Assembly: GCA_021798115.1 (NCBI GenBank)
Contig: JAJZYM010000001.1
Coordinates: 232,421-296,420 of the forward strand
From: Pseudomonadota bacterium
GTDB lineage: Bacteria > Pseudomonadota > Gammaproteobacteria > JAKAQQ01
Length of the DNA stretch: 64,000 bases
Direction: 5' to 3'
Part shown: positions 33,079-50,101 of the stretch, piece after piece
How positions within the stretch are numbered: the first letter of the stretch is position 1
Layout: every line of letters begins with the position of its first letter
The notes under the pieces: model-generated
What the model was told of the DNA's origin: nothing
Seen by the model: the letters and a program-made list of their open reading frames with translations, nothing else
The model's database searches: none
Translations under genes and position numbers: made by a program

Positions 33079-34469
33079 GCTCAAGCGGCTTTCTCCTGGC
33101 GGGTGCGGACTTCCTGGCCGCCCTTCTTCTCCTCGTCGGCCTCAAGGCCATGAGCCATCCGCGTACGGCACGCCCGGGCGTTCTGGCCGCCGGGGCCGGC
33201 ATGCTTCTGGCCGTTCTTGCCAATCTCGTTCTCGATGCCTTTGGGCGTGGGAGCCTGACGCTCGCCTTTCTGGCCCTTGTCGCTCTTTTTGTGGGTGGCG
33301 CGCTTTCGGCGGTGCTCAGCCGCCGTGTGCCGATGACAGCGATGCCCGAGATGGTGGCCCTTTTCAACGGCCTCGGAGGAGCGGCGGCGGCGCTTCTGGT
33401 GTTTTCCCGTGTGCTCTCCGGGGGGACCCCCGGCCCCCTCGCCTTTGGGCTGGCCGTCTTTGCCGCTCCCGTCGGCAGCGCGTCCTTCGGCGGGAGCCTG
33501 GTGGCCGTGGCGAAACTCCAGGATTGGCGCCTTCCGACGGGCCGCCTGCCCGGGCGCCGGATCTTCACGGGGGCGCTGATGGTCCTCTCGTTCGCACTCT
33601 TCGCTCTGGCGCTTTTCGCCCGCGTCCCCGAGGTGAGGATCCTGAGCGCCGGGGGCGCCCTTGCGCTGGGCTTTCTCGGTGGGGTGGCGCTCACCCTGCC
33701 GATCGGTGGTGCGGACATGCCGGTCGTCATCGCGTTCTACAACGGGCTCACGGGTCTTGCGGTGGGCTTCGACGGCGTCCTTCTGCACAGCCCAGCGATG
33801 GTGGTCGCCGGTGTCGTCGTTGGGGCTTCGGGCACGATGCTCACGCGGCTTATGGCGCGTGCGATGAACCGCTCCTTGGCCGCGGTGCTCTTTCGCAGGT
33901 TCGGCTCGCCGGTTTCCTCTTCCGGGCCTGCGGAGAGTGAGCCCCTCGCGACCGATCCGGCAGATGCCGCCGTGGTTCTTGCCTACGCGCGTGAGGTTGT
34001 GATCGTTCCGGGCTACGGGATGGCTGTCGCCCAGGCCCAACACCGACTCCAGGATCTCGCCCGTCTTCTCGAAAAGCGTGACGTCCGTGTCCTCTTCGCC
34101 ATCCATCCGGTTGCCGGGCGGATGCCCGGGCACATGAACGTGCTGTTGGCCGAGGCGGGAGTCCCGTACGATCGCCTCCTCGATCTTGAGGAGGCGAACG
34201 CCGCCCTCGCCGTGGCCGACGCGGTTCTCGTCGTGGGGGCCAACGACGTGGTCAACCCCGATGCCCGCACCAACCCCGCAAGTCCTCTCTACGGCATGCC
34301 CGTTCTCGAAGTGACACGCGCTCCGCGCGTTCTCGTCATCAAGCGCGGGCGAGGACGGGGTTTCTCGGGCGTCGAAAACCCTCTCTTTACGGCTGACAAT
34401 GTCCGCCTCGTCTATGGTGACGCGAGCGACGTCCTCGGGCGGATCATCGCGTCGGTTCGGGAACTCTAG
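33075..34469 (+). CDS. pntB: NAD(P) transhydrogenase subunit beta (PntB)
   Basis: Membrane and NADP(H)-binding subunit, 464 residues. The first 270 residues hold about eight to nine membrane helices, including GGADMPVVIAFYNGLTGLAVG, the conserved transport helix. The C-terminal domain III has VIVPGYGMAVAQAQH and VLLAEAGVPYD, and VGANDVVNPDA is the NADP-binding site. GTG 33075 overlaps the preceding stop; the longer open frame upstream is a shadow of pntAB. Confidence 0.95.
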   Translation: MSSSGFLLAGADFLAALLLLVGLKAMSHPRTARPGVLAAGAGMLLAVLANLVLDAFGRGSLTLAFLALVALFVGGALSAVLSRRVPMTAMPEMVALFNGLGGAAAALLVFSRVLSGGTPGPLAFGLAVFAAPVGSASFGGSLVAVAKLQDWRLPTGRLPGRRIFTGALMVLSFALFALALFARVPEVRILSAGGALALGFLGGVALTLPIGGADMPVVIAFYNGLTGLAVGFDGVLLHSPAMVVAGVVVGASGTMLTRLMARAMNRSLAAVLFRRFGSPVSSSGPAESEPLATDPADAAVVLAYAREVVIVPGYGMAVAQAQHRLQDLARLLEKRDVRVLFAIHPVAGRMPGHMNVLLAEAGVPYDRLLDLEEANAALAVADAVLVVGANDVVNPDARTNPASPLYGMPVLEVTRAPRVLVIKRGRGRGFSGVENPLFTADNVRLVYGDASDVLGRIIASVREL

Positions 34470-34544
34470 GCTTCCCTGATCTTCGGGGCGAGACTAGAGA
34501 CCGCCGCCAGAATCCCCGGATGTGGGACGGATGGCACCGCCCTT

Positions 34545-34960
34545 GTGTACCGACAGCGTCAAATCTTCATTGAGCAAACAGGACCGCCTCGCGCCGCGCC
34601 ACACCTCGGCCGAGTTCGTCGCCTTTCTCACCGACGTGGTGCTCAACCCACCGCGTGGCCAAAAATTCACGTGATCGCGGACAATCTCTCCTCGCACAAG
34701 GCGGGCCCGGTCTGGGCGTTCCTCGCCGAGCATCCGAACGTGCACCCCCGACCTATTCCGCCAGGCTCAATCAGGTGGAACTGTGGTTCGGCAGGATCGA
34801 GCGCGACGTGATCACGCACGGCGTGTTCACCTCGGTCGCCGATCTGAAGAGAAAACTCATGCGCGATATCCGCTACTACAGCAAGGCCCCGCGCGCCGTG
34901 AAGTGGAAGTCCTCCGACACCAGCAAACGCCTCGGTACACCTTCAGTTGTTACAGGCCAC
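34545..34960 (+). pseudogene. IS630-family transposase remnant
   Basis: The C-terminal part of a DDE transposase survives in three frames. Frame 1 from about 34600 reads HTSAEFVAFLTDVVLNPPRG; a frameshift near 34663 leads to IHVIADNLSSHKAGPVWAF (second catalytic aspartate), and another near 34748 leads to TYSARLNQVELWFGRIERDV (catalytic glutamate) and a C-terminal helix. The N-terminal half is missing. Bases 34470-34544 and 34961-35045 hold nothing I can identify, and no terminal inverted repeats were found. The fragment is thus an inactive relic between pntB and the tRNA. Confidence 0.85.
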
Positions 34961-35045
34961 GAGCCACAGTGTTTGGTCGCCATCCATTGAAAGGAAAATT
35001 CCTCTTCAACTATCAAGGACTTATCTATCGGGACCTATCTATCAT

Positions 35046-35134
35046 TGGCGGAGAGGGTGGGATTCGAACCCACGTGACATTGCTGTCCATCCGATTTCGA
35101 GTCGGCGCCGTTATGACCGCTTCGGTACCTCTCC
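35046..35134 (-). tRNA. tRNA-Ser (anticodon CGA)
   Basis: Reading the minus strand, GGAGAGG at the 5' end pairs with CCTCTCC near the 3' end, followed by discriminator G and an encoded CCA. The D arm, a CTCGAAA anticodon loop (CGA at 35099-35097), a long variable arm typical of class II tRNAs, and a GGTTCGAATCC T arm are all present. It decodes UCG. The trb operon ends 39 bases upstream of its 5' end. Confidence 0.97.
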
Positions 35135-35148
35135 GCGTCCGGCGTAGG

Positions 35149-35154
35149 ATTTTA
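35149..35154 (-). promoter_or_regulatory. Possible -10 box of tRNA-Ser
   Basis: Minus-strand TAAAAT lies 15 bases before the tRNA 5' end, a good distance. Any -35 would overlap the end of trbI; none is clear. Confidence 0.4.
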
Positions 35155-35172
35155 CCATCCGGCTCTTTCTCT

Positions 35173-36351
35173 TTAGGGAATCGGACCCTGTTCGGGGGAC
35201 GGGAAGCGGATGGTTCGGGCGACCAGAACGTTGAAACGTGTTCCGCGCCGGATGATGATGGTGGGAGGCAGATCCTGGTCCCGCGCGAGAAGATCCTGAA
35301 CCGTCTGATCGAGGGCTTCGCCCGCCGCCGTGCCTGCGATCAACGGGGCCCCCGACGGGAGGACGAGCACCCGGTTGGTGTTGCCGGGTAACGCAGCCCC
35401 GAGTCCGGCCACGAGAAAAGAGGACCCGAACATCCGCCAAAAATGCGTGCGGACGAGATCGTGAAGCCCGGCGCCGCCACGTTGCCCCGCGGCTTCCATG
35501 CCCGGAAGTCGGATGCTGGCCCCGTCGGGGATCTCGATCCGGTCGAAACTCACAAAGATGCGCCTCTCGCCCGGACGCACGCTCTCCCCGTAACGGCCGA
35601 GGAGGAGTGATCCTGCGGGAATGAGGAGGGTGCGCTCATGGATGCTCCCGTAAACCGCGCGGCTCGTCCGCGCTTCGACAAGACCCGAGAGATCGCTCAC
35701 AAGCCGGGTCAGGAGGACGGCGGGGATCACGGTCCCGGGGAGGAGTACGTGCCCCCGTGGTGCGGGATGCAGCTGGACGCCACGGGCACGGGGGCTCTGA
35801 GCGGGCCCGTGCGCCGTCGTAAGGCGGGCGATGGGCTCATCGGTGTTGAGTGGCCAGAGTCCGACCGGTTGCGGCAGCGGCAAGGACGGGGCTCCGACGA
35901 CTCCGTTCTCTCCGTGTGCCCGGAGTCTGTTTCCTGACAAGAACAGGGCGCCGTGGGTGTTGTTCGGAGTTCCAATGTCGAAGGCGAGGATGGGGGCCGC
36001 GCGCGCTTGGGCCCGTACGCCGGGGAACGCTTGCGGAGGCCGCAGGCGATGTCGCCTCGGAGGCGGTTTCGCGGCCGCGGGTGGAGGTCGGGCGTGCCGC
36101 GGAGATGACGTCACAGGCGGGGAGCGGGGCGAAGACGTACGTTTGAGATGACGAAGAAACCTCTTCACCGAGGGACGAGCAAGCCCACGGAGGGAGACTC
36201 CAATCCGCGTGGGCAGTCTTCTGCCCGTTGCGGTGTCGAGCCCACCCTCGACGATCGTGGCCACGATGAGAGCCAGGAGAATGACAGCCAGCGCCCACCA
36301 GTGAAGGCGTCGGCTGAGCGGCGGTGGTGGGGAGTGATCCGGGGCCTTCAT
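35173..36351 (-). CDS. trbI: Conjugal transfer protein TrbI (VirB10 family)
   Basis: Core-complex protein spanning inner and outer membranes in a type IV secretion system. The 392 residues comprise a short cytoplasmic N-terminus, one membrane helix (LHWWALAVILLALIVATIVEG, about residues 16-36 in part), a proline-rich periplasmic linker, and the C-terminal VirB10 domain with LLPGTVIPAVLLTRLVSDL, IPAGSLLLGRYGE and FDRIEIPDGASIRL. It is the last gene of the minus-strand trb operon; ATG 36351 overlaps the trbG stop by four bases. Confidence 0.92.
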   Translation of the reverse strand: MKAPDHSPPPPLSRRLHWWALAVILLALIVATIVEGGLDTATGRRLPTRIGVSLRGLARPSVKRFLRHLKRTSSPRSPPVTSSPRHARPPPAAAKPPPRRHRLRPPQAFPGVRAQARAAPILAFDIGTPNNTHGALFLSGNRLRAHGENGVVGAPSLPLPQPVGLWPLNTDEPIARLTTAHGPAQSPRARGVQLHPAPRGHVLLPGTVIPAVLLTRLVSDLSGLVEARTSRAVYGSIHERTLLIPAGSLLLGRYGESVRPGERRIFVSFDRIEIPDGASIRLPGMEAAGQRGGAGLHDLVRTHFWRMFGSSFLVAGLGAALPGNTNRVLVLPSGAPLIAGTAAGEALDQTVQDLLARDQDLPPTIIIRRGTRFNVLVARTIRFPSPEQGPIP

Positions 36352-37097
36352 TGCAAGCGAAGGATTTTCACCCGGCGGTGACCGAGGACGAGGACGGCTT
36401 GTCGGAAGAGTCCGGGATAGATGATCGAGCGGCCCACCACGGTGTAGTCGACGAGTTGCGCATGCCCGTGCTGGAGAAGGAAGAGAGCAGGCAGACTGGC
36501 CGCATGCCGGCGGAAGATAAAGTAGGTTCTGTGTCCGATGGCGTAGACCTCCTGCGGGCGCCAGCGGGCGTGCCCGCGGATCAGAAAGCGCGTGTCGATC
36601 CGGGGGGACGGAGGTGGCAGGGAAGGATGAACGGGCGGTGACGTGGGACGCTCGAAAACCACGAGGGGCCGCGGTGTCCGCCAGCGCACTTCTTGGTCCC
36701 AGGGCGACCCGCGGGAGACGCTGGCCAGGAAAAGTTCGTAGCGGTGTTTGTTGGTGATCAGTGTGGCGGATGTCTCAAGGCCTGCGCGCACGGGCTTGAC
36801 GAAAATGTCCTCTGCGTCGCGTGCGACAATCCAGCGGACGGTGTCCCCGAGGGCAAAGACGAGCGGGTGTTCCCCGGGGCGGAGGGCGATGTCGGTAATA
36901 GCACCGGCGAGGGTGCGAACCGTGTAGATGCGCCCGGGACGGTAGCGGTAAACGAGCACACGCGCACCGGTCGTGGGGGCGCCGGGGAGCGCTCGCCCGT
37001 GGGCGCATGCGGGAGCGTTACCCAACACAAGGAAAAGGGTCAACAAGCCCGTAAGGACAAACTCAGAGTGTTTTCTCAAGCGTAAAGTTCGTGACAT
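36348..37097 (-). CDS. trbG: Conjugal transfer protein TrbG (VirB9 family)
   Basis: Outer-membrane-proximal core-complex protein, 249 residues. A signal peptide (VLTGLLTLFLVLGNAPACAHG) leads to a VirB9 N-terminal domain (IYTVRTLAGAITDIALRPGE, FALGDTVRWIV) and a C-terminal domain (RFLIRGHARWRPQEVYAIG, TYFIF). ATG 37097 lies 35 bases inside the end of trbF; no better in-frame start precedes the signal peptide. It matches the family in domain order but is shorter than the usual TrbG. Confidence 0.9.
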   Translation of the reverse strand: MSRTLRLRKHSEFVLTGLLTLFLVLGNAPACAHGRALPGAPTTGARVLVYRYRPGRIYTVRTLAGAITDIALRPGEHPLVFALGDTVRWIVARDAEDIFVKPVRAGLETSATLITNKHRYELFLASVSRGSPWDQEVRWRTPRPLVVFERPTSPPVHPSLPPPSPRIDTRFLIRGHARWRPQEVYAIGHRTYFIFRRHAASLPALFLLQHGHAQLVDYTVVGRSIIYPGLFRQAVLVLGHRRVKILRLQ

Positions 37098-37737
37098 ACA
37101 AACCGAGAGGATCGAGCAGCAGCGTGCGTCGATGACGCGGGCGGGCCAGCGTGTAGTTGAGTGTCAGGAGCCAGCTCGCACGCCGTTCACGATTCCCGCC
37201 GTCCGGGCGGGTGACCGTTTTGAGTCGGAGGATCGCCACCCCCTGAGGTAGGAGGCTGACCGCCCGCAGGCGGACCGTGCGGACAAGTGAGGGATCCTGC
37301 CGCAGGCGCGTGAGTGGTGCGCTGCGTGTGGCCCAAGCCTGGAATTCCCCGACCGCCGCTCCCCGCACGAGACGGTAATCGCGCGTGAGGTTCCGGGTCG
37401 TTAGGCCGGCATCGAGTGTCAGGAGGCGGATCGCCCAGCGAGCAAGAAAGTAGCGCAGGACGACCGCGTGGACGCGGCGTGCCGGCCGGGTCAGAACGAG
37501 GCTTGTCCGTCCGGACGGGTGGGCGACGACGACGTAGGGGCGATAGCGTACGGTCGGCGGACGCGCCAGCGCCGCCCAGGCGAGAAGAACGAGCGCAAGC
37601 GCCTGGACGAGCGTGAGAACAAAAAGCCTGTTGCGGGTGATCAGAACCGCACCGTAGCGTTCGAAGTGGCGAGCGCTCACTTCCGGGCCGAGACGGGCGT
37701 GCGGAGGAACCGCCGGGGGAGGAAGAGAGGCGTTCAC
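37063..37737 (-). CDS. trbF: Conjugal transfer protein TrbF (VirB8 family)
   Basis: Inner-membrane assembly factor of the secretion channel, 224 residues. A cytoplasmic N-terminus carries SARHFERYGAVLITRNR, followed by one membrane helix (LFVLTLVQALALVLLAWAAL is the core) and a periplasmic domain of the VirB8 fold (VLRYFLARWAIRLLTLDAGL; LRLKTVTRPDG; LTLNYTLARPR). GTG 37737 overlaps the stop of the 57-aa gene by four bases; longer versions would read into low-complexity Pro-rich sequence. Confidence 0.88.
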   Translation of the reverse strand: MNASLPPPAVPPHARLGPEVSARHFERYGAVLITRNRLFVLTLVQALALVLLAWAALARPPTVRYRPYVVVAHPSGRTSLVLTRPARRVHAVVLRYFLARWAIRLLTLDAGLTTRNLTRDYRLVRGAAVGEFQAWATRSAPLTRLRQDPSLVRTVRLRAVSLLPQGVAILRLKTVTRPDGGNRERRASWLLTLNYTLARPRHRRTLLLDPLGLYVTNFTLEKTL

Positions 37738-37907
37738 AGGTGGAAGAGTGCGACAAGCAGGAGGCGGATGAGGTAGCTCACGGTGGCCGCACCTCCCAGA
37801 AGGACGACAAAGGGCTGGTCTTTCCATCGGCGCTGAAGTTCGGCCCCGAAAAGGTGCGCAAGGTACGCCAGAGAGGTGTCCCGACGCGGGAGGGCGGAAG
37901 TGCGCAC
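37734..37907 (-). CDS. Small single-span membrane protein inside the trb operon (57 aa)
   Basis: Not recognised. It fills the space between trbL and trbF exactly: its GTG begins four bases after the trbL stop and its stop overlaps the trbF start. The product has a basic, helical N-terminal half (LAHLFGAELQRRWKDQPFVV) and one hydrophobic helix (VLLGGAATVSYLIRLLLVAL) at the C-terminus. It has no lipobox cysteine, so it is not a VirB7- or TrbK-type lipoprotein. A structural accessory role in the channel is inferred from position only. Confidence 0.62.
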   Translation of the reverse strand: MRTSALPRRDTSLAYLAHLFGAELQRRWKDQPFVVLLGGAATVSYLIRLLLVALFHL

Positions 37908-37911
37908 CGTG

Positions 37912-38988
37912 CTAGCCCGCGATCCAATCGGTGGCTCGGCCTGCAAGGCGCATCCCTCCGCTCCAGACGCCTTGACCGCTCGAACCTCTTCCGGACAAAA
38001 GATGCTGCACGATCGACGGAATCTGCCGCAGCAGCAACAGAATGAATCCCACAGCGAGAAGCACCGCGCAGTCGTAGAGAAGGAGCGAGACGGGCGCAAC
38101 GAGCGCTTTGACAGGACCGTGACCGTGGAGGAGGGTTGTCTGCCCTATGACCACGGTTTCGTGGAGCGCGAAAGTCAGCACGGGCACGATGAGCGCGACG
38201 ATGACCGCGGCAACAATCTTGTAGAACCCGACGCCGAGAAGAAAGCGGAACCAACCGTGCGCCAGCTCGGAGAGATAAGGAACGAGGAGACAGATAATCA
38301 AAAGCGGACCGAGCGCGACGGCGACGGCAGTGAGCGCTTCCGCCATGAAATAGATCCCGAGAAACCCGAGCCAGGCGGCAAGAAGCGCGACGAGCGCCAG
38401 GCCCAAAAGGATCGAGCCGAGGAGCACAATCCACAGCACCGCCGCCGTTCGCCGAAGATCCCATCCCAAAGCGGGAAGATGGCGGAGGGGAAGCGCACGC
38501 CAGAGTTCCCCGACGGCGTGGAGAAATGCTCGGGAGGCAACCCTGACAGGAGCGAGTGCAAGTCCGGATCCGTGCGTGTGCGCTGCGAGAAGCGTGTTGG
38601 CCACTGTGTCGAAACCACCGTCGAAGGCGTGAAGGAGCGGCCCGTAATCGTGAAGCACCCAGGCCACGAGACCCCAAAGCAGGATAAAACGGACCGCCGA
38701 GGCCACCGTGCTCTCGAGGCTCGCGGGATGCAGCGTGATGGCAAGCCCGCCGAGCGCGAGCATGAGCGATGTCAGGAGATAAAAGAGCGGGTGGGGTCCG
38801 GCCAGGACGAGCCGTCTCATCTTGCGTGCGAGACGGAACCCGCTTGCGCCGGTGGCGTGGATGAGGTGAGCCAGAAGCTGAGGGAGAGAAACGGCGAGAC
38901 GGAGCCCGTCTCCGGAAGACGTGGAGACCGCGGCGGTGATGTGTGGGCGTAGGTCGACACCAAGGACGCTGACCAGAAGGGCGCTCAT
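37912..38988 (-). CDS. trbL: Conjugal transfer protein TrbL (VirB6 family)
   Basis: Polytopic inner-membrane channel component, 358 residues. At least six hydrophobic segments are visible, among them PLFYLLTSLMLALGGLAITL, AAVLWIVLLGSILLGLALVAL, LTAVAVALGPLLIICLLVP (with the typical GPLLI sequence of TrbL/VirB6), and GFYKIVAAVIVALIVPVLTF. The C-terminal tail is Gly/Ser-rich and hydrophilic. ATG 38988 overlaps the trbJ stop by four bases. Confidence 0.9.
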   Translation of the reverse strand: MSALLVSVLGVDLRPHITAAVSTSSGDGLRLAVSLPQLLAHLIHATGASGFRLARKMRRLVLAGPHPLFYLLTSLMLALGGLAITLHPASLESTVASAVRFILLWGLVAWVLHDYGPLLHAFDGGFDTVANTLLAAHTHGSGLALAPVRVASRAFLHAVGELWRALPLRHLPALGWDLRRTAAVLWIVLLGSILLGLALVALLAAWLGFLGIYFMAEALTAVAVALGPLLIICLLVPYLSELAHGWFRFLLGVGFYKIVAAVIVALIVPVLTFALHETVVIGQTTLLHGHGPVKALVAPVSLLLYDCAVLLAVGFILLLLRQIPSIVQHLLSGRGSSGQGVWSGGMRLAGRATDWIAG

Positions 38989-39803
38989 CGATGAGTGTCG
39001 GATGGTGTTGCTGAGAACCAGAGGCGCTGGGCAAGGGGGCTGTTTGCGGTGGTGGCCAGGAGTCGGCTGAGAAGCGCTCGGTCGCGGCGCTTGAGACGGC
39101 GGTAGCGGGAGAGAATTGCCCGGTCGAGAGCCGCGCGGTGGCTTCGCCCCCGAGCGCGTCGCTCGGCATGATGGGCGAGAAGCGCAAGCTCGGCGGCGTC
39201 CGATGCGGTGAGTGTTCCCATGTGGTCGTTGAGGAGTTCGAGTTCCTGCTTGAGAGACCCCGGGGCGTCGAGACGGGCCTCGAGTAAGCGCAGGCGGCGG
39301 TAATCGGAGGCCACCGAGGCCAAGAGGCGCCGATCGAGGAGGACGCTGTGCTCGGCAGCGTGCTCTCGTTTTCGCAATCCGCGGTTGAGATTTTTTTCGT
39401 ATCCGCTCCAGCTTATCCGTGCGCTCGCAAGCCGGCGGTTAACGGCGAGCAGACGGTGGTAAGCGGCGTCGACCGACCCACGTGTCCGGCGGAGGGCGGT
39501 GAGAAAGTGCTGATAGGATCGGATTTGGTCATCGAGAGCACGCCCGCCGGCCAGATCGACGAGTGTGCGACCGGGGTACGAGCGCCACTCAGCCAGTTGA
39601 GCCCGGAATTCCTCTTCGAGCGTGAGTACCGTTTCCGCTTCGGCCTCAACCTGTTGGATTGAGTTGAGTGCGGTAGTTGTGTTGCGCATGAAGTTCATCG
39701 GGTCGAAGACGGTGCTTCCTGTGGCCAGAGCGTGGGCGCAGGGCGCTTCCACGAGAAACAGGAGCGTGAGGACGAGCGGCAGGGCCGCTGGCTTAGGAAT
39801 CAT
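38985..39803 (-). CDS. trbJ: Conjugal transfer protein TrbJ (VirB5-like)
   Basis: Secreted minor pilus or adhesin-like component. The 272-residue product has a signal peptide (LPLVLTLLFLVEAPCAHALA) and the TrbJ opening VFDPMNFMRNTTTALNSIQQ. The rest is a long helical, charged, coiled-coil-like protein. ATG 39803 overlaps the end of trbE by 11 bases. TrbK, the small entry-exclusion lipoprotein often found next to trbJ, is absent. Confidence 0.87.
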   Translation of the reverse strand: MIPKPAALPLVLTLLFLVEAPCAHALATGSTVFDPMNFMRNTTTALNSIQQVEAEAETVLTLEEEFRAQLAEWRSYPGRTLVDLAGGRALDDQIRSYQHFLTALRRTRGSVDAAYHRLLAVNRRLASARISWSGYEKNLNRGLRKREHAAEHSVLLDRRLLASVASDYRRLRLLEARLDAPGSLKQELELLNDHMGTLTASDAAELALLAHHAERRARGRSHRAALDRAILSRYRRLKRRDRALLSRLLATTANSPLAQRLWFSATPSDTHR

Positions 39804-42249
39804 GGTTCATGCTCTCGAGGTACCGGGCCGCCCAGGCCTCTCCACCCCGACGGGCCTCCTCGAAACGTCTGAGTGCGCGGGCGTCAGAGCGGAGATGGGC
39901 GAGAAGCGCGGGAGGGAAGCGGACGTCCAGGACATGCCCTCCGCGCGGTGTGCGGACGAAATAGTGGCGGTGAGGGGTGGCCTGTGCGATCCGGTCGAGA
40001 TCGCTCGCCCCGAGTCCGAGAAGTTCCCTGTAGAGATGCTGCTGAGCATGAGCGTGGGGGTTGGGGAGAAGAATGCGGGTCGGAGCGTTCTCGAGGAGCA
40101 CCGACGCGGCGGGGCTTCGGGCGATCTCGGACAGCGACTGGGTCGCCAGGATCAGGCAGGCGTTGCGCTTGGCGAGCGTGCGCAGCCAAGTCTCGAGGTG
40201 TGGAGCGAACTGGGGATCGGTGAGCGCCGCCCAGGCTTCCTCGATGTAGATCAGAGTGGGTTGCCCGTCAAGATCGAGGCGGATCCGCTCAAAGAGGTAG
40301 TCGAGAAGGAAACGAGCAGGCCCCGGGCGACCAAGCAACGTGCCGAGGTCGACAGCGGTAAAGGTCCCGAAAACGAGCCGATCCTCGACATGATCGAAGA
40401 GCCCTCCCGAGGCTCCGCGCTCGAGCCAGGGGGTGAGTCGGGCGGCCAGTTCACGCGGCAAGAGTTGGGTCAGGGTGAGAAGGCGACGCCGGTCCCCAGG
40501 AAGATCGGCCAGGGCTTCAAGCGCTTCGGCGAGACACCGTTCGGCTTCGGGTTCCCGGGTGGGGTCCTCGGCTCCAAGAAGTCCCAGGATCCAACGCAGG
40601 AGCCAGGCTCGACTTCCTTCACGCGCGAGCAGCTGGAGCGGATTGAGCGTCGGAGCCTCATTCTCGTTCTCAAGATCGAGGTAGCTTCCCCCCTGAAGCA
40701 CCGTGGGGATGAGGCACGAGTGATCGCGGTCGAAAATATATGTTCGGCCGCGATACTTCTGCCACGAAGCGATGAGAAAGTTCACAAAGACACTTTTCCC
40801 GCTACGGCTTGGCCCGAGGACGAGCGTGTGGCCCAGATCGTCGACATGAAGGTTGAAAGACGTGAGCCCTCCGCGTGCGGTGCGGAACGTGGCGAGGGCG
40901 GGGATGGGGCGCCCAACCTGTCGGGTGAGGTAGGCGTTCATGGGCTGCCCGGCATCTTCTCCGGACGTCGGGGCGAGATCGGCGAGGTTGGACGTTCCGA
41001 CGAGCGACCAACGAACCGGTTCCCACCACTGTCCTGGAAGTGTTCCCGCCCAGGCGCCGAGCGCGTGGAGCCTTTCACGAATGCAGAGCATCCCTGCCCG
41101 GTGAAGGGCGGCGACGGCACCCTGGGCCGTCGCTTCGGCTTCGTCAGGGTCGCGTCCGTAGCAGACCACGGTGACGTTGACGTATCCGAAATGCTGGTGG
41201 GCGAGGCTGGCTTGGGCACGGACGGCCTCCTGGACGGAGGCTTCGTGCTGCGGACGGTCGCTGGCTCCGCGTTCCCGGGTCAGCGCTTCGCGAAGGTAGC
41301 TGCGCCAGCTTCGCGCCAAGAGCAGATGATGCCGTTGCACCTTGGAGATCCAAGCCTCGGCTTGTGCGTTGGGGATACGGCGGAACGCCAGCGAGAGGCG
41401 TAGCGTCCCGTTCAGGGTGAGGAGCTCATCGAGGCAGCCGGGGCGTGTCGCCGATTCTCCTCCCCGAGGCCACCCGCGCAGTGAGAGGACGACCCCGTAC
41501 CGTTGCTCAAGAGGGCCGCTCCAAACCAGTGTGCCCCGAGCGATATCGAGAAACGAATCGGCCAAGGTGTCGTCGAGGTAGGCGCCTTCGGCGAGAGTGA
41601 CTTGGGGGCACATCTCGAGGCCAAGGCGGTCGTGAAGGAATCCTGCGAGATCGGCTCCCGTGAGAGGGCGCCAGTGAAGCTCCGGACAAAGGTCGTTGAG
41701 CACGGCGATCTCGGCGTCGTGGCGGGCCATCTGCTCGAGCAGCGCCGATTCTTCGAAACGGGCCAGCGACCGGTGACTGAGTGGGGCGAGAAATCGCCGT
41801 CTCAGACGTGCTGGTCGACCGTGCGTTTGCTCCTCCCCCCCGCCCGGGGCGCCGAACGGGGCGTCGGGCGGGGTGATCAGGCTGAGATGGTGCACGTTTT
41901 GGTACGGGGTGGGGGAACGCAACGATTCTGTGTGCAGTTCCTCGAGACGGGCACTCACCGAATCGCCACATTCGTTCGCGTGACCGCCCGGAATCGTGGC
42001 CGGGTGGCGATCGACGCTCCACCAGAGCGAGGTGTTTTCGCCGAGAAGTTCGAGCGCCCGGTCCAGACGTTCTGTGTGGCGGTCGCGGGCGTCTTCTTTC
42101 CCCGTCCGGAAATCGATCCCCTCGAAGGCGAGCACGCTGAGGAGAGAGCCGTCCTTGAGGAGGATGTGCCGTGTATCGAGCAGGAGCATCCAGGGAACGA
42201 GCTCGCCGAGCGGACGGCCCTCACGCGGCGGTCGGGCGAGTCTCAGCAC
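39793..42249 (-). CDS. trbE: Conjugal transfer ATPase TrbE (VirB4 family)
   Basis: Cytoplasmic/inner-membrane ATPase that drives pilus assembly and transfer. The 818-residue length is typical. The N-terminus LGELVPWMLLLDTRHILLKD matches the TrbE start, with the KDGS motif next. Walker A is GPSRSGKSVF near residue 467, Walker B is TLIYIEEAW near residue 673, and LILATQSLSEIA follows. GTG 42249 is chosen because it sits four bases before the trbD stop and gives this N-terminus; the frame is open 54 codons further upstream but reads as antisense to family length. Confidence 0.95.
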   Translation of the reverse strand: MLRLARPPREGRPLGELVPWMLLLDTRHILLKDGSLLSVLAFEGIDFRTGKEDARDRHTERLDRALELLGENTSLWWSVDRHPATIPGGHANECGDSVSARLEELHTESLRSPTPYQNVHHLSLITPPDAPFGAPGGGEEQTHGRPARLRRRFLAPLSHRSLARFEESALLEQMARHDAEIAVLNDLCPELHWRPLTGADLAGFLHDRLGLEMCPQVTLAEGAYLDDTLADSFLDIARGTLVWSGPLEQRYGVVLSLRGWPRGGESATRPGCLDELLTLNGTLRLSLAFRRIPNAQAEAWISKVQRHHLLLARSWRSYLREALTRERGASDRPQHEASVQEAVRAQASLAHQHFGYVNVTVVCYGRDPDEAEATAQGAVAALHRAGMLCIRERLHALGAWAGTLPGQWWEPVRWSLVGTSNLADLAPTSGEDAGQPMNAYLTRQVGRPIPALATFRTARGGLTSFNLHVDDLGHTLVLGPSRSGKSVFVNFLIASWQKYRGRTYIFDRDHSCLIPTVLQGGSYLDLENENEAPTLNPLQLLAREGSRAWLLRWILGLLGAEDPTREPEAERCLAEALEALADLPGDRRRLLTLTQLLPRELAARLTPWLERGASGGLFDHVEDRLVFGTFTAVDLGTLLGRPGPARFLLDYLFERIRLDLDGQPTLIYIEEAWAALTDPQFAPHLETWLRTLAKRNACLILATQSLSEIARSPAASVLLENAPTRILLPNPHAHAQQHLYRELLGLGASDLDRIAQATPHRHYFVRTPRGGHVLDVRFPPALLAHLRSDARALRRFEEARRGGEAWAARYLESMNHDS

Positions 42250-42563
42250 AATGTCGACACCGGGGCGAACCCCTCCGGGCGGAAGCCGCAGCGACGAAGC
42301 CCCGCCCACGGTATGTAACGGTCGGCTTGCCGGACGTAGCGGAGGTACACGTTGCGCATCTGGGGATCGTGGCGCGCAATCCGCATGAGAAGCAGGTGGT
42401 TCACAATCCACAACGGTGACAGGAGATACCAGTGCATCCCGAGGGTCAAGCCGGTCGCCAGCACGAGGTGCGCGAGTGCGAGATCGCGTTCTGCTCCCAG
42501 GAAGAGTAGGGGTTCGCTGAGAACGGAGTACAGAGGACTACGGCGTGCGGATGCTGTGCTCAC
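42243..42563 (-). CDS. trbD: Conjugal transfer protein TrbD (VirB3 family)
   Basis: Small inner-membrane component, 106 residues. The motif RRSPLYSVLSEPLLFLGAER opens the protein, as in TrbD, followed by two hydrophobic segments (LALAHLVLATGLTLG; WYLLSPLWIVNHLLLM) and a charged tail with MRNVYLRYVRQADRY. GTG 42563 follows the trbC stop by four bases; the longer frame to 42656 lies inside trbC and is rejected. Confidence 0.9.
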   Translation of the reverse strand: MSTASARRSPLYSVLSEPLLFLGAERDLALAHLVLATGLTLGMHWYLLSPLWIVNHLLLMRIARHDPQMRNVYLRYVRQADRYIPWAGLRRCGFRPEGFAPVSTLC

Positions 42564-42567
42564 AGAA

Positions 42568-42870
42568 TCAAAATCGGAAGAGGGCCAGCCAGCTGCTGAC
42601 CGCAAAGACCAGGCTGAGGCCAAAAGCGACACGAATGAAGAGTGCAAAAAAGCCACGGACTTCCCCGAAGGCGATCAGGAAACCGAGGACAATCAGCAGA
42701 ATTGTGGCGATGAGACGAGCCGTAGGTCCCTGGAGATCAGCCACGATTGTTTCGAGCACGCCGTCCCAGGGGAGCCCTCCTCCCGCAAAGCTTCCTTGGG
42801 CGTGGGCGCGGGAGACAACCAAGGGGAGCATCCCGGATGCGAATAGAACGAACAAGCGGCGAGCGGTCAT
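42568..42870 (-). CDS. trbC: Conjugal transfer pilin TrbC (VirB2 family)
   Basis: Major pilin precursor, 100 residues. A signal peptide ends in SRAHAQG (cleavage after AHA), followed by a soluble stretch and two hydrophobic helices (LIATILLIVLGFLIAFG; LFIRVAFGLSLVFAVSSWL), the layout of TrbC/VirB2 pilins. ATG 42870 has AAAGGAG nine bases upstream. It could be cyclised as in RP4, but no maturation peptidase (TraF) is encoded here. Confidence 0.9.
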   Translation of the reverse strand: MTARRLFVLFASGMLPLVVSRAHAQGSFAGGGLPWDGVLETIVADLQGPTARLIATILLIVLGFLIAFGEVRGFFALFIRVAFGLSLVFAVSSWLALFRF

Positions 42871-43940
42871 AGAGGAGTCTCCTTTGCAGGGGGATCGGGG
42901 TGTCGTGTCGGTCGTGCCTCGTGCAAGGGCCACAGGGGAACCAAACGGTACGCACCGTCGTCGGTCAGCGCGACACGTACGAGTTCGCTCACTCGTCTCT
43001 CGCCACCTAGACGTTGAAGATGGACGACGTGACCGAATGCGGCCGCAACAGCGCGGCGGATGGCCACGTGGGGCCAGCCGGTTCCGGCGGTCAGCACGAG
43101 GGTCTCCAGGCGGTGAAGAGCCTCACCGGCGCTGTTGGCGTGGACCGTGAGCATGGTTCCACGATGCCCCGTGTTCGCCGCTTGAACGAGGTCAAACGCT
43201 TCGGCGCCCCGGGTCTCGCCGAGGATGAGCCGGTCGGGACGCAGGCGAAGCGCCTGGCGGACGAGAAGCCGGAGATCCACGCCGAGAGTGTCATGTGCCA
43301 GAAGACGAATCCAGTTGGCACGGTCGAGTTCGAGCTCGGCCGTGTCTTCCAGGAGCACGAGACGCTCGTGTTCCGGTACGGCGGCGACGAGTGCGTTGAG
43401 CAGGCTCGTTTTCCCGCTAGAGGTTCCTCCCGCGATCAGAAGGTTTTCTCCACAAGAGACGAGGCCGGTGAGAACCTCTTCGAGAGAACACCCGGGAGTG
43501 GCGACGGGCGGGCGCCGGGGATCCGCCGCGGGTCCGCCAAAGCAAAAATCCTCGAGCCGGGTCTTGCGGCGCGGGCGGCGACGGAACGCGAGGGCATCGC
43601 CACGCGCGGCAATGGGGTGGAGGACACCGGAGACTCGCCAATCATCGTGGTGGACGTCGAGCAAAGCTTCTGGCCCGTCTTCACGAACATCGCGTCCGTT
43701 GAGGCGCGCCAGAAGGATGAGACTGCTGCGTACCCCTTGGGCGGTAAGCGTTCCGTCCCAGCGGCTCATTCTTCCCGAGCGCTCGATATAAATCTCTTCG
43801 GGGGTATTGACGACCACCTCGTCGACGGTCTCGTCGCGCAAGGCCGGGAGGATCGGGCGGAGCAGGACCTTGAGGGTCTCGCGCGCGTTCTCTTCGGGCG
43901 AGGCCGGATGGGTTGCGAAGGGTGTGCGGAAGCGAGCCAT
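42867..43940 (-). CDS. trbB: Conjugal transfer ATPase TrbB (VirB11 family)
   Basis: Hexameric secretion ATPase, 357 residues. Walker A is GGTSSGKTSLLNAL near residue 170; the His box and Walker B region read ILGETRGAEAFDLVQAANTG and HRGTMLTVHANSAGEAL, which are characteristic of VirB11. The N-terminal domain with VDEVVVNTPEEIYIERSGRM is also typical. It is the first of the trb genes proper and lies 65 bases after the 133-aa membrane protein. Confidence 0.95.
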   Translation of the reverse strand: MARFRTPFATHPASPEENARETLKVLLRPILPALRDETVDEVVVNTPEEIYIERSGRMSRWDGTLTAQGVRSSLILLARLNGRDVREDGPEALLDVHHDDWRVSGVLHPIAARGDALAFRRRPRRKTRLEDFCFGGPAADPRRPPVATPGCSLEEVLTGLVSCGENLLIAGGTSSGKTSLLNALVAAVPEHERLVLLEDTAELELDRANWIRLLAHDTLGVDLRLLVRQALRLRPDRLILGETRGAEAFDLVQAANTGHRGTMLTVHANSAGEALHRLETLVLTAGTGWPHVAIRRAVAAAFGHVVHLQRLGGERRVSELVRVALTDDGAYRLVPLWPLHEARPTRHPDPPAKETPL

Positions 43941-44005
43941 GGCGACTATTGCACACGCTTGGAGGTGTTCCCGCGACAGGAAACCACGGCCGTTTCGGGC
44001 GCGGT

Positions 44006-44407
44006 TCAGGGGCCGCCGTCACGGACGCGGTGCAGCAGGATGGCAATGAGGGCAACGAAGGGGTATTCCCCGTGTACTCCGTACGACAGCGGTGCAAGGA
44101 GAGCGATCGCGGCGGTTGTCGCCGCGAGGGCTGCGGCCCGAGCACCGTTCGGGAAACGGCGGCAAGGAGGCGCGATAAACGCGTCGGCAAGCACGGTGAC
44201 GAAAAGTGTCAGAATGATGAATAGAGAGTGGTGTAGACACCCCAGGCGGTGGTCCACCATGGTGGTGACCGGCCACGACCAGTGAACATGCGTCTTCTCG
44301 GGTCTGTGAAGCGTCCCGAGAAGAACATCGGCGCCGCCGAGCAACGCCGCCACCAGGAGAGCCGCGGCCCAGAGGCGTATTGCGGAGAGGGCGACGAAAG
44401 GCTTCAC
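44006..44407 (-). CDS. Membrane protein between coupling protein and trbB (133 aa)
   Basis: Not recognised. The product has three to four hydrophobic segments (LWAAALLVAALLGGADVLLG; SLFIILTLFVTVLADAFIAP; ARAAALAATTAAIALLAPL; YPFVALIAILL) joined by histidine-rich loops (RPEKTHVHWSW; DHRLGCLHHS). ATG 44407 overlaps the stop of the coupling-protein gene by four bases, so it is translated with it. Small membrane proteins of similar size sit next to TraD-type coupling proteins in some integrative elements, which may be the best analogy. Confidence 0.7.
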   Translation of the reverse strand: MKPFVALSAIRLWAAALLVAALLGGADVLLGTLHRPEKTHVHWSWPVTTMVDHRLGCLHHSLFIILTLFVTVLADAFIAPPCRRFPNGARAAALAATTAAIALLAPLSYGVHGEYPFVALIAILLHRVRDGGP

Positions 44408-46140
44408 GTGGGTGGGGTGCTCAAGGTCCGTGCCTTGACAAGCCGCCCTCCCGCGAGGCTGGCGATGAAGTGCCCTGTTGGCAGTGTTCCCAAGAGATCG
44501 GGAGGGATCCGCTCGCGTCTCTCAGCGCCGACGGAGCGTGAGTGAGATCCGCTTCGGTGCCCGTGCCCCTGACTGTCGCGTCCGCGTGAGATCGTACGGG
44601 CTACACGAGCCACCGGGACGTCCTCGCGGCCGAATTGTTCGCTGCAGAAGCGCTGGGTGAAACCGTCGCGTACGCGAAACACCACGAGCTGTGTGGTGTT
44701 GCCCACGACGACCCGTGCCGGGGCTTCTCCTCCCAAGCGCGCGGCGAGGTCGGAGAGGGTTTGCAGGCAGAGAGTGAGATGGAATCCACCGCCGCGCCCT
44801 TTGTTGAGAAGCTGGATGAGCGCGGTTCCAGCGGTTTCGCCGGCTTCATCGACATAGACTTGAACGGGATCCGCGTCTTGTCCGTGTGCGTAACGGCGGG
44901 CCGCAAGCGCCGCGAGTTCGCCGAGGAAGAGAGATCCGACGGCTTGTCCCACGAACGGATCCGCAAGCGTGTCGAGCCCGATGTACGCTACAGTCCCGGG
45001 CCGGCATAGGAGATCGATGTTCCAGATCGGGCGTGGATCCGAGCCCTCTTCGGGCGAGAGGAGTCCTCGAAGTTCTCCACTTGTGAGACCTCCAAGAAGA
45101 GGAAGAAGAGTGGCCACCATCTTCCCGTAGTGTCCCAGGTCGTGTTCAGCGACGGCAAGAATTTTGTCGATGGTGGGCTCGGTACACCGATCGCGGCGGT
45201 AGGCGGCGACCAGGGAGGCAAACCAGGCTTCCTGATTCTCTTGAGATGAACGAGCTCGGCCGCGACTTACGTGAAGCTGAGGGAACGGCCCGCGTTGCCG
45301 CACCCGCTCCTCGAGCATGGATGCGGCGAGGGTACGACCGCGCTCGAGAACATGACGGTGGAGGGTGGCCAGTGTGATCGGTTCACCCTGGAGGCGTAGT
45401 CCTTCACCGATGGCCTCGAGGACCATCCATGAGAAAGCTACAAACGGCGAGGATCCGTCGCTGGCCGGGAGAAGACGGACGATCCGGCTGGCAAGCTCCG
45501 AGGTCCGATTCGCCTCGGACAACGCGTCGAAACGGCACGAGTGGGCGGGATGGCCAAGATGAAAATAGACATAGGGACGCCCGTGGCGTTGGGCCCCCCC
45601 GCGCATCTTTCGTTCAAGCTCGCGGTCGCCTTTGGGGTCGAGGACCAGCACGCACTGTCCACAAGCAATGTCCTGCTCAATGAGGGAACCGATCCAAAAC
45701 GTTTTCCCGCTGCCCGGGGCTCCTAAGACGAGGGTATTGCCGCTCCGTTGTGCATATGTCAAGCTGAGAGACCGCTCTCGCCCCAGGCCGTGGAGCCTGG
45801 GATCGCCGCGGTCGTCGGTGGCGCGAAGGGGATTTACAGGAGGCCCCCGTAGACGTTCGTAAAGACGCGCGCTCGTTCCCTCTGTCCAGGCAAATCCCCG
45901 CCCGACCACGTAGGTGCCGGGGCGGGCGCGGCAGAATTCGGGGTCTCCTCGTCCCCGGCAGGGAACGACACGGCGAAGGACCAGAGTCAAGGCGACGAGA
46001 AGCGCAACGCTCCCTTCGATCCGGGCCACGTCGGTTGTTTGGGGGCCTTGTCCCCAGGCCGCAAGAAGACACACAAGAGCGAGTGTGCACCAGAGGAGAA
46101 GACGTAGGCCAAGACGTGTGGAAGAGGAGTGCGTAGTCAA
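44404..46140 (-). CDS. Type IV coupling protein (VirD4/TraD superfamily)
   Basis: Hexameric DNA-pump ATPase that links substrate to the secretion channel. The 578 residues start with two membrane helices (LGLRLLLWCTLALVCLLAAW and IEGSVALLVALTLVL). Walker A is GAPGSGKTFW near residue 142, followed by VLVLDPKGDRELERKM; Walker B is VQVYVDEAGE near residue 426, then LLNKGRGGGFHLTL and LCLQTLSDL. The sequence style (HGLGRERSLSLTYAQRSGNT, EANRTSELASRIVRLLP) resembles TraD of SXT/R391-type elements more than TraG of RP4. Start is TTG 46140 with only a weak ribosome binding site. It heads the secretion operon. Confidence 0.9.
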   Translation of the reverse strand: MTTHSSSTRLGLRLLLWCTLALVCLLAAWGQGPQTTDVARIEGSVALLVALTLVLRRVVPCRGRGDPEFCRARPGTYVVGRGFAWTEGTSARLYERLRGPPVNPLRATDDRGDPRLHGLGRERSLSLTYAQRSGNTLVLGAPGSGKTFWIGSLIEQDIACGQCVLVLDPKGDRELERKMRGGAQRHGRPYVYFHLGHPAHSCRFDALSEANRTSELASRIVRLLPASDGSSPFVAFSWMVLEAIGEGLRLQGEPITLATLHRHVLERGRTLAASMLEERVRQRGPFPQLHVSRGRARSSQENQEAWFASLVAAYRRDRCTEPTIDKILAVAEHDLGHYGKMVATLLPLLGGLTSGELRGLLSPEEGSDPRPIWNIDLLCRPGTVAYIGLDTLADPFVGQAVGSLFLGELAALAARRYAHGQDADPVQVYVDEAGETAGTALIQLLNKGRGGGFHLTLCLQTLSDLAARLGGEAPARVVVGNTTQLVVFRVRDGFTQRFCSEQFGREDVPVARVARTISRGRDSQGHGHRSGSHSRSVGAERRERIPPDLLGTLPTGHFIASLAGGRLVKARTLSTPPT

Positions 46141-46266
46141 AGTCGGACGCTTCTGGGAACCGCGTCCAGTCTTGTGCTGATCGCACCGCGCTGTCGCGCT
46201 GAGCCGCGGCCGTTGCGGCCCGTTCCGGCTTCCCCCGATTTTCGGTCCCGCCGATGCGGGCAGGGG

Positions 46267-47193
46267 TCATGGGAGTGCGAGGGGCTTGCGCGGGCCGGCA
46301 GCAACCATGAGAAGCGGCACATCGAGTCGCTCGATCAGCCGCCCGGGCAGATGTTCGCGCCCCCATGCCGCGAGCCCATGACGCCCGTGACTCGCGAGGA
46401 CGACAAGGTCAATGCCAAGCCGATGGGTCAGCGACGCCAGAACGCCCGCCGGATTGCCCGTCTCAATGACGGGACGCACATGCACGGAATCCGTGGTTGC
46501 CTCCCGGGCACAACGTTCGAGATAAGCCGTGCGTAGCCGTTCCCCGCGACGACGCAGAAAGCGATCCGCGTGCGGGGCGAAACGCGCGCGCAGGGCACCC
46601 AGGCCGTCAGTGTCTTGGTGTCCTGGAAGGACGTGGACGAGGTCTACGCTTCCCTCGTCCTCGCCCGCGAGCCACAGGGCACGTTGAAGGGCGGTTTCGT
46701 GACTCCTGTCGCCATCCAGTGGGACGAGAAGATGGTGCGGCCCTGGTGCCGGGGGGCGAGAGCGAGGCGTGAGCTGAAGCACGTCGCATCGGGCCCGTGC
46801 CAGAACTCTCTGGGCGACACTACCACGGAGCCAGCGGCGGGGGTCGACGCGGCCGTGTGTGGCGAGGAGTACCACATCGCACTCCTGCTCATCGGCTGTG
46901 AGGGCGAGGGCGTTCGCTACGTCCTCGGGATACGACCGCCGCAGCATGCAGGCCGTGGCGTGGCCGATGCGGCGTAGCCTTTCCGCGCGGTCTTCGAGAT
47001 AACGTGCCGCCGTTTCGGCGTCATGCAAATGAGGGGCTCCATGGACCCGCTCGGGCCCGCCCTCCTCCACAATGTGGGCGAGCGTGATGATGCAACGACC
47101 GGGCGCGGCCCAGCGAACGACGAGTTCGAGAAGATGCTCGGACCAGGGCGTGCCGTCGAGAGCAAGAAGAAGGCGACGGTAGGGGAGTGTCAT
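46267..47193 (-). CDS. Tandem universal stress protein (two UspA domains)
   Basis: A 308-residue protein made of two Usp domains. The first starts RRLLLALDGTPWSEHLLELV and ends with the nucleotide-binding THGRVDPRRWLRGSVAQRV (G-2-G-9-G-S like). The second starts HHLLVPLDGDRSHETALQRA and ends VLASHGRHGLAAWGREH, LPGRLIERLDVPLLMV. ATG 47193 overlaps the stop of the metal transporter gene by four bases, suggesting joint expression, for example under metal or acid stress. Bases 46141-46266 between it and the secretion operon contain two short hairpins without T tracts and no gene. Confidence 0.9.
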   Translation of the reverse strand: MTLPYRRLLLALDGTPWSEHLLELVVRWAAPGRCIITLAHIVEEGGPERVHGAPHLHDAETAARYLEDRAERLRRIGHATACMLRRSYPEDVANALALTADEQECDVVLLATHGRVDPRRWLRGSVAQRVLARARCDVLQLTPRSRPPAPGPHHLLVPLDGDRSHETALQRALWLAGEDEGSVDLVHVLPGHQDTDGLGALRARFAPHADRFLRRRGERLRTAYLERCAREATTDSVHVRPVIETGNPAGVLASLTHRLGIDLVVLASHGRHGLAAWGREHLPGRLIERLDVPLLMVAAGPRKPLALP

Positions 47194-48488
47194 ATCTTGA
47201 GGCCCAGAGTCTGGAGGATCAGCACGACATTGAGGCCGGTGATGGCCCAGGCGAGACCGTAGGCCACGACGACCGTCGTCCGACGATTACGTAACGAGCC
47301 CATGAGTTTCCGGTCGGATGTGAAGCGCGCCAGAGGGAGAAGAGCCAAGGGAAGACCGAAACTGATGATCACCTGGGTCAAGATGAGGACCGCGGTCGGC
47401 GAAAACCCCGAGGCAATCACAAGAAACGCCGGAATCATGGTGAGGCCCCTCCGAAGCCAAAGTGGAAACCGGCGACCGAGAAAGCCTTGCATGATGACCT
47501 GACCGGCCACCGTGCCGACGGTGGATGAGGCAACGCCCGAGGCCAGAAGGGCGAGAGCGTAGAGAAGGGCTGCCCCTGTGCCAAGAAGTGGGACGAGTGT
47601 TCGGTAGGCCTGGTTCAATCCGGCGACGTTGACGATTCCGTCGTGATGAAAGGTGGCGGCGGCCATGATCAGCATGGCAAGATTGGTCAGCGTGGCCACA
47701 GCCATGGCGATGCCGATATCAAGGGTTTCAAAACGAAGTATGCGCCGTTTGGTTCGGGCGTCGCGGACCGGCAGGCGGTCCTGTGTCAAGGCCGAATGGA
47801 GAAAGATGACATGGGGCATCACGGTGGCTCCGACGATGCCCACCGCGAGATAGAGGGCCCCGTGGGGAAGCGAGGGAAGGAAAAGGCCTTGGGCCACGTG
47901 GGACCAATGTGGGCCGCCGAGAGGGATCTCGACGAGATACGCGAGTGTGACCAGCGAGACAACCGCGGCCATGACGGCTTCCAAAGGCCGGAAGCCGTGC
48001 CGTTCGAGGGTCAGAACGATGACAACCGTGATTGCGGTGAGCGCGCCTCCCACCGGCAGACTGACCGAAAGCAGTATGTGAAAGGCAATGCTTGCCCCGA
48101 CGAACTCGGCCACGTCCGTTGCCGCCGCAACGATCTCCATCGAAACCCAAAGGATGGCGATCGTTTTCGGCCCGTAATGCTCGCGGCAAAGCTCGGCGAG
48201 ATTGCGTCCGGAGGCGAGCCCAAGCTTGGCGGCAAGATACTGCATGACGGCCGCCGTGAGGCTGGCGCCGGCAACCACCCACAAAAGCGCGTATCCGAAC
48301 GCCGATCCGCCCTGAAGATTGGTTGCGAAGTTCCCCGGGTCAATGTAGGCGATGGCGGCGATAAACGCCGGCCCGAGAAACGGGAGGAAGCGCGCAGGGC
48401 CACGGCGGAGACTTCGGCCCTCAAGGATGTCCAGGGCGTCGTCCTTCGTCCTTCGGCTCGAACTGCGTAAACGTTCCGCGAGATCCAT
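47190..48488 (-). CDS. mntH: NRAMP-family divalent metal transporter (MntH-like)
   Basis: Proton-coupled Mn2+/Fe2+ importer of the inner membrane, 432 residues and about eleven helices. The metal-binding motif of helix 1 is IAYIDPGNFATN (DPGN) and that of helix 6 is VGATVMPHVIFLHSAL (MPH). ATG 48488 follows GGGAG at seven bases; an upstream in-frame start would add 41 unlikely residues. A perfect AT-rich palindrome at 48560-48575 lies in the divergent promoter region shared with folE and may be a metal-responsive operator. Confidence 0.93.
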   Translation of the reverse strand: MDLAERLRSSSRRTKDDALDILEGRSLRRGPARFLPFLGPAFIAAIAYIDPGNFATNLQGGSAFGYALLWVVAGASLTAAVMQYLAAKLGLASGRNLAELCREHYGPKTIAILWVSMEIVAAATDVAEFVGASIAFHILLSVSLPVGGALTAITVVIVLTLERHGFRPLEAVMAAVVSLVTLAYLVEIPLGGPHWSHVAQGLFLPSLPHGALYLAVGIVGATVMPHVIFLHSALTQDRLPVRDARTKRRILRFETLDIGIAMAVATLTNLAMLIMAAATFHHDGIVNVAGLNQAYRTLVPLLGTGAALLYALALLASGVASSTVGTVAGQVIMQGFLGRRFPLWLRRGLTMIPAFLVIASGFSPTAVLILTQVIISFGLPLALLPLARFTSDRKLMGSLRNRRTTVVVAYGLAWAITGLNVVLILQTLGLKI

Positions 48489-48559
48489 TCGAGACTCCCG
48501 CCGCGTGACGGCACGATCATAACTCCGAGCAGGCGTTGGGGAGGCCGTCTCTAGGGTGG

Positions 48560-48575
48560 TTCTATTAAAATAGAA
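48560..48575. promoter_or_regulatory. AT-rich palindrome between divergent mntH and folE
   Basis: TTCTATT, two A residues, then AATAGAA: perfect 7-bp arms in a region that is otherwise GC-rich. It is 72 bases from the mntH start and 26 from the folE start. It could be an operator for a metal or redox regulator and also overlaps AT-rich -10-like sequence. It does not match the E. coli MntR or Fur consensus by eye. Confidence 0.5.
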
Positions 48576-48600
48576 ATCTTGAAAAGTCGCGGGTCCGTTC

Positions 48601-49188: not shown

Positions 49189-49255
49189 TGATGCTTGGGA
49201 TCTGTCTGGAAACGGATCGATCACCTCCGTACACGGATTCACGACGCGACGATCG

Positions 49256-50098: not shown

Positions 50099-50101
50099 TC
50101 C

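Follow-up and report, generated by a model that had tools for sequence, protein, structure and literature searches.

We analysed a 64,000-nucleotide stretch of a gammaproteobacterial genome (GTDB lineage JAKAQQ01; contig JAJZYM010000001.1, positions 232,421 to 296,420), hereafter the window, which carries a trb-type type IV secretion system (T4SS) and its coupling protein gene, traD, at 35173-46140. This trb block is held by purifying selection in two species of its genus and is not a fresh remnant. The genome also encodes a relaxase, TrwC, and a second coupling protein, TrwB, at an unlinked locus (together TrwBC). We tentatively favor, at a little under even confidence, a conjugation machine that is fixed in the chromosome, split over these two loci and probably exporting cellular DNA. 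On this view, the block would have lost its own relaxase, with TrwBC supplying the substrate.

Selection on the block and its probable plasmid-type ancestry

The block is a single minus-strand run of traD, orfX and trbB, C, D, E, J, L, F, G and I, in which every frame is open and adjacent genes overlap or almost abut. As the original prediction stated, the coupling protein gene and trb genes are all intact and tightly packed, and they sit between housekeeping genes, with tRNA-Ser(CGA) and then pntB on one side and uspA-mntH-folE on the other. Family searches of the flank proteins (PntB, Usp, NRAMP/MntH and FolE) agree. Homologues of VirB2 to VirB6 and VirB8 to VirB11 all lie in this one cluster, as in an MPF_T (trb/VirB) T4SS, and the Walker A motif is intact in all three ATPases (TrbB, TrbE and TraD). 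Note that the family matches of TrbJ and TrbL are weak, and that both assignments lean also on position and conservation.

A second species (G002; JAKAQQ01, YF2.bin84) carries the block at the same site, in the order tRNA-Ser-trbI..B-orfX-traD-uspA-mntH, with 65-84% amino acid identity between block proteins. Ratios of nonsynonymous to synonymous substitution (dN/dS; Nei-Gojobori, pairwise against G002) range from 0.07 to 0.24 across all trb genes, with 0.19 for traD. The flanking uspA and mntH gave 0.21 and 0.10, and dS is near 1 throughout, so the trb genes behave like their neighbors. Thus, both comparisons that the original prediction had proposed, of the pntB-uspA locus in relatives and of dN/dS across trb, came out on the side of retention for this species pair: the site is shared with G002 and the ratios are not near 1. 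Recent decay of the block is ruled out by these values. Only orfX, at 0.70, evolves far faster than all of its operon neighbors.

The expected absence of a relaxase and an integrase was also borne out. No relaxase was found in the window, and no PF00589 integrase match on contig C36 (serine recombinases were not searched for). No repeats bracket the block; the direct and inverted repeats within 33500-50500 are scattered, chance-type pairs. The locus therefore lacks both marks of an integrative conjugative element (ICE), namely a relaxase on the same element and an integrase with flanking att direct repeats. It has instead the make-up of a MOB-less T4SS: VirB4 and a coupling protein without a relaxase in the neighborhood.

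The coupling protein scores 414 bits against SXT_TraD (TIGR03743; cut-off 366) and is therefore not an IncP TraG. This SXT-type identity, together with the absence of integrase and att repeat, rules out an IncP/Tn4371-type ICE. The closest likeness is to MOBH/MPF_T plasmids of the pTK9001 type. On pTK9001 itself (Thioalkalivibrio sp. K90mix; typed MOBH, MPF_T), the order is mobH, traD, DUF4400, trbB, C, C, D, E, J, L, F, G, I, and a plasmid of Azonexus hydrophilus NCP973 has almost the same order. The window block shares the coupling-protein family and the order traD, small gene, trbBCDEJLFGI. It differs in having neither the mobH gene directly before traD nor the pil/TcpQ genes after trbI, in being chromosomal, and in a TrbE identity of only ~34-35%. 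The arrangement is thus the plasmid order minus mobH, and a Usp gene sits in the mobH place. In these plasmids, the slot of orfX is occupied by the DUF4400 gene; no sequence match between the two was found, and the equation is one of position. Judged by gene order and family matches, the block looks like a MOBH/MPF_T-type conjugative element that lost its own relaxase and kept its channel and coupling protein.

A plasmid-like contig was observed in a relative within the same family (G004 contig C30; L014:2291-18304 and L015). It encodes a tyrosine recombinase, an actin-like protein, an AAA ATPase, ParA/ParB and a Rep3 initiator, and a MobH-like relaxase, under the Pfam and NCBIfam cut-offs, directly precedes its traD and trb genes. 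This contig is probably a divergent MOBH/MPF_T plasmid.

A relaxase module at a second locus, and its inheritance

The relaxase missing from the window block is present elsewhere in the genome. TrwC, a MOBF relaxase, is encoded on a different contig (C1), unlinked to the trb block, with TrwB in the same gene run. TrwC scores 174.9 bits against NCBIfam MobF (cut-off 100), and its relaxase domain aligns to solved TraI/TrwC relaxases. Tyr16 and the H135/H146/H148 motif are invariant in seven sequences, giving TrwC the HUH histidines and N-terminal Tyr of a MOBF relaxase in addition to the curated score. No MOBP or MOBQ match was found in the genome, and no MOBH relaxase with PF07514 and the G004 MobH-like protein as queries. 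The original prediction proposed that the element had lost its mobility module while its apparatus stayed under selection. This stands as regards the plasmid order minus mobH, the missing MOBH, MOBP and MOBQ relaxases and the low trb dN/dS. Its implication that no DNA-processing partner exists was overturned by the whole-genome relaxase search that it had suggested, which found TrwC and TrwB.

Our family sample is small: nine genomes, in which most relatives are drafts of 65% completeness or more. Searching with VirB4 recovered trbE in eight of the nine, and the relaxase domain PF08751 is present in seven. Chromosomal TrbE copies of the family group in one clade of the tree (98/97), branching as g1 | (g2, g3), where g1 is the genus of the window and g2 and g3 are the other two genera of the family. 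Outward from this clade lie the G004 plasmid copy, then pTK9001, the Azonexus plasmid and the outgroups. The TrwB and TrwC trees have the same genus and species order. The shared site in two species, the single family clade and the congruent trees are what stable chromosomal inheritance would leave.

The relaxase module is likewise constrained (TrwB/TrwC dN/dS 0.15-0.27). It lies beside tRNA-Thr in the g1 species and has other shared chromosomal neighbors in g2 and g3; contig positions in G004 and G005 place it at least ~30 kb from trb. Between the window's genome (G000) and the closer species G001, TrwBC dS is 0.16-0.19, against 0.10-0.18 for other genes, and because these values are close, TrwBC looks vertically inherited. 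A recent exchange of TrwBC between these two genomes, prompted by a dS of 1.07 at the neighboring FUR gene, was rejected, as other shared loci have a dS of 0.10-0.18, like TrwBC.

In g2 and g3, trbBCDEJLFGI lies at another chromosomal place than in g1. Its trbI side is common to both genera and adjoins a peptidase-S9 gene, and in g3 the genes for DUF6776, bactofilin and Fe-S biogenesis lie upstream. The fetched flanks of these clusters gave no relaxase, MOBH or TraD match, and the TrwB match in them was limited to a 42-residue piece in G005. The latter genome (g2) has the mntH-folE-ntrX-ntrY backbone of the window without trb beside it; the g1 block is therefore at a different site. The g1 cluster may have been relocated, or it may have been acquired independently from a related plasmid. 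No large gene lies between folE and ntrX in G005.

Three further observations concern these loci. Directly upstream of trwB in g2 and g3 are genes for a single-domain response regulator and a PAS histidine kinase (L064:12097-13999, L065:12407-14245, L067:11955-13804, L066:7670-9519), which suggests two-component control of the relaxase module there. A tyrosine recombinase gene lies ~1.3 kb from trwC in G005 (L065:6991-7908), with no counterpart listed beside trwC in G003, G004 and G007. Outside the family, the nearest trb clusters (L122, L123 and L124; G273, G363 and G269) gave no MOBH or TraD matches in the fetched stretches, and that of G269 starts beside an RNase III gene. Chromosomal trb clusters that lack a relaxase may occur in more lineages.

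Annotation of the window

Coordinates and supporting evidence are collected in Table 1. The longer open reading frame (ORF) at 37778-39187, a competitor for the place of TrbL, is in the wrong frame: its conserved codon positions are third positions, and TrbL is the ORF given in the table. The gene orfX, missing from the original prediction, overlaps the end of traD by 4 bases. Beside tRNA-Ser, a remnant resembling by eye an IS630-type transposase lies at 34520-34990, where the ORF tested has no Pfam match. Nor does the ORF at 49477-50094, within the region first read as a decayed emrAB (49190-50100).

Table 1. Genes of the trb block and its immediate flanks (window coordinates; dN/dS against G002).
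Feature	Position	Strand	Evidence
tRNA-Ser(CGA), block flank	35046..35134	-	ARAGORN; same place in sister species (L013:811-901)
TrbI/VirB10, outer-membrane core	35173..36351	-	PF03743 E=2e-43; dN/dS 0.22
TrbG/VirB9	36348..37097	-	PF03524 CagX E=6e-43; dN/dS 0.24
TrbF/VirB8	37063..37827	-	PF04335 E=2e-25; dN/dS 0.12; start codon uncertain, sister-species ORF 224 aa
TrbL/VirB6, multi-spanning inner-membrane protein	37912..38988	-	TIGR02783 E=1e-7, sub-cut-off; dN/dS 0.10; 82% aa identity; six hydrophobic segments
TrbJ/VirB5-like	38985..39803	-	weak TrbJ match; position; dN/dS 0.21
TrbE/VirB4 ATPase	39793..42411	-	PRK13873 E=3e-108; dN/dS 0.18; Walker A GPSRSGKS intact
TrbD/VirB3	42243..42656	-	PF05101 E=1e-7; dN/dS 0.13
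TrbC/VirB2 pilin	42568..42933	-	PF04956 E=6e-17; dN/dS 0.07
TrbB/VirB11 ATPase	42867..43940	-	TIGR02782 E=9e-56; dN/dS 0.11; Walker A GGTSSGKT intact
orfX, small membrane protein	44006..44407	-	hydrophobic segments; dN/dS 0.70; position only, no family match
TraD, SXT/MOBH-type coupling protein	44404..46140	-	TIGR03743 414 bits; dN/dS 0.19; Walker A and B intact; two N-terminal membrane segments
Usp, housekeeping flank outside the machine	46267..47193	-	PF00582; dN/dS 0.21

Competing readings and significance

In conjugation, a MOBF relaxase nicks the origin of transfer (oriT) and remains on the strand, a coupling protein docks it to the channel, and the VirB11 and VirB4 ATPases power assembly and transfer. 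In the split machine that we tentatively favor, TrwC would nick a putative chromosomal oriT near its own locus and TrwB would pass the TrwC-linked strand to the Trb channel, where TrbB and TrbE would be the motors, TrbC the pilin and TrbF, TrbG and TrbI the conduit. As the strand would leave from a chromosomal oriT, the exported DNA would be chromosomal, reaching neighboring cells or the medium in the manner of a high-frequency-of-recombination (Hfr) strain or the gonococcal island. TraD in g1 would then serve as an additional coupling protein, retained to handle MOBH plasmids or other substrates. The link between Trb and TrwBC is suggested by their co-inheritance, and export of cellular DNA is a function predicted from the genes themselves. 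The co-inherited relaxase module favors DNA transfer, while the data leave effector delivery, DNA release and uptake in contention. Effector delivery and a helper role for plasmids are the live rivals to the split machine.

Several points weigh against this split machine. Trb and TrwBC may work separately. G001 gave no match for trbE, traD or uspA, nor a close mntH, and yet retains TrwBC; this draft is 94% complete, and the absence of the block can be an assembly gap or a deletion. The trb site in g1 differs from that in g2 and g3, and only g1 has TraD alongside, so a related plasmid may have supplied the g1 cluster on a separate occasion. Furthermore, no conserved repeat stood out as an oriT when the intergenic regions at trwB were compared, and the lytic transglycosylase of pTK9001 is not found in the window block.

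We consider it unlikely that the Trb channel has become a protein-delivery machine in which TraD recruits effectors instead of a relaxase (as in Cag, VirB/VirD4 and X-T4SS), with TrwBC an unrelated mobilization module. A coupling protein retained without its cognate MOBH relaxase, and conserved in both g1 species, would fit such a role. So would the precedent of MOB-less T4SSs, described by Guglielmini et al. in 2011, many of which were read as protein secretors where chromosomal (PMC3158045). However, trb is kept without TraD in g2 and g3, and the relaxase module is co-inherited. No toxin, effector or immunity gene was recognized in the immediate flanks, although no genome-wide effector search was made.

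Rather improbable, in our estimate, is a resident helper, a channel lent to mobilizable or MOBH plasmids with their own relaxase and kept since plasmid exchange benefits the population. TraD is of the type that serves MOBH relaxases, and G004 has just such a plasmid-like contig, with Rep3, ParA/ParB, a divergent MobH-like relaxase, TraD and trb. Yet MOBP, MOBQ and MOBH relaxases were not found in this genome, and a host would hardly stay under selection to help plasmids for as long as a genus lasts.

An inward channel, a DNA-uptake machine like Helicobacter ComB or archaeal Ced, is very improbable. TrbI has a match to the ComB10 model as well, at a score far under the cut-off, and chromosome-fixed conjugation machinery used in import has precedents (PMC9905601). 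A co-inherited relaxase, though, fits export better. The block also keeps a coupling protein, whereas ComB is not known to have one. Least credible is the view that the block is on its way to loss by drift, as a long-standing conjugative remnant or an ordinary ICE: the relaxase is gone, orfX is weakly constrained, the block was not found in G001 and an apparent insertion sequence remnant lies nearby, but all trb genes are open and constrained in two species, with neither an integrase match nor flanking repeats at the block.

Among known systems, MOB-less chromosomal T4SSs (PMC3158045) also have VirB4, a coupling protein and MPF genes but neither a relaxase nor an integrase nearby; here, in contrast, there is a distant relaxase with its own coupling protein, apparently co-inherited over the family. 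Archaeal Ced/Ted (PMC9905601) and the T4SS of Patescibacteria (PMC12102498) are likewise conjugation-type machineries that are chromosome-fixed and held by their lineages. Ced is a DNA importer without any homologue of a relaxase, and the Patescibacteria systems mostly lack a relaxase, whereas a HUH relaxase is conserved here. The T4SS of the gonococcal genetic island (PMC4207684, PMC8716806) is also chromosomal and has a relaxase, and export of chromosomal single-stranded DNA is what we propose here from genes alone. Its relaxase, TraI, acts within the one island; here, the MPF_T channel and the MOBF module are at separate loci. In the literature searched, we found no precise precedent for relaxase genes kept at a distance from trb, which is not proof of absence. 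What is new is that a relaxase module and a channel without a relaxase are both conserved and yet lie apart.

It is possible, if doubtful, that a whole proteobacterial family carries a complete conjugation machine (MOBF relaxase, coupling protein and MPF_T channel) in its core chromosome, at two unlinked loci and by vertical inheritance. Archaeal Ced would then have a bacterial counterpart, one that serves host-controlled exchange of cellular DNA in small-genome bacteria. Bacterial conjugation systems have usually been treated as a property of plasmids and ICEs, in contrast to Ced (PMC9905601), and a family with a chromosomal, unlinked and co-inherited channel, coupling protein and relaxase would be a bacterial exception. 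The finding would go beyond a variant of known systems only if DNA transfer were shown. It also warns against assigning relaxase-less clusters to effector delivery until the remaining genome has been searched. If our reading is true, one could test directly whether conjugation evolves in cells to serve their own exchange of genes.

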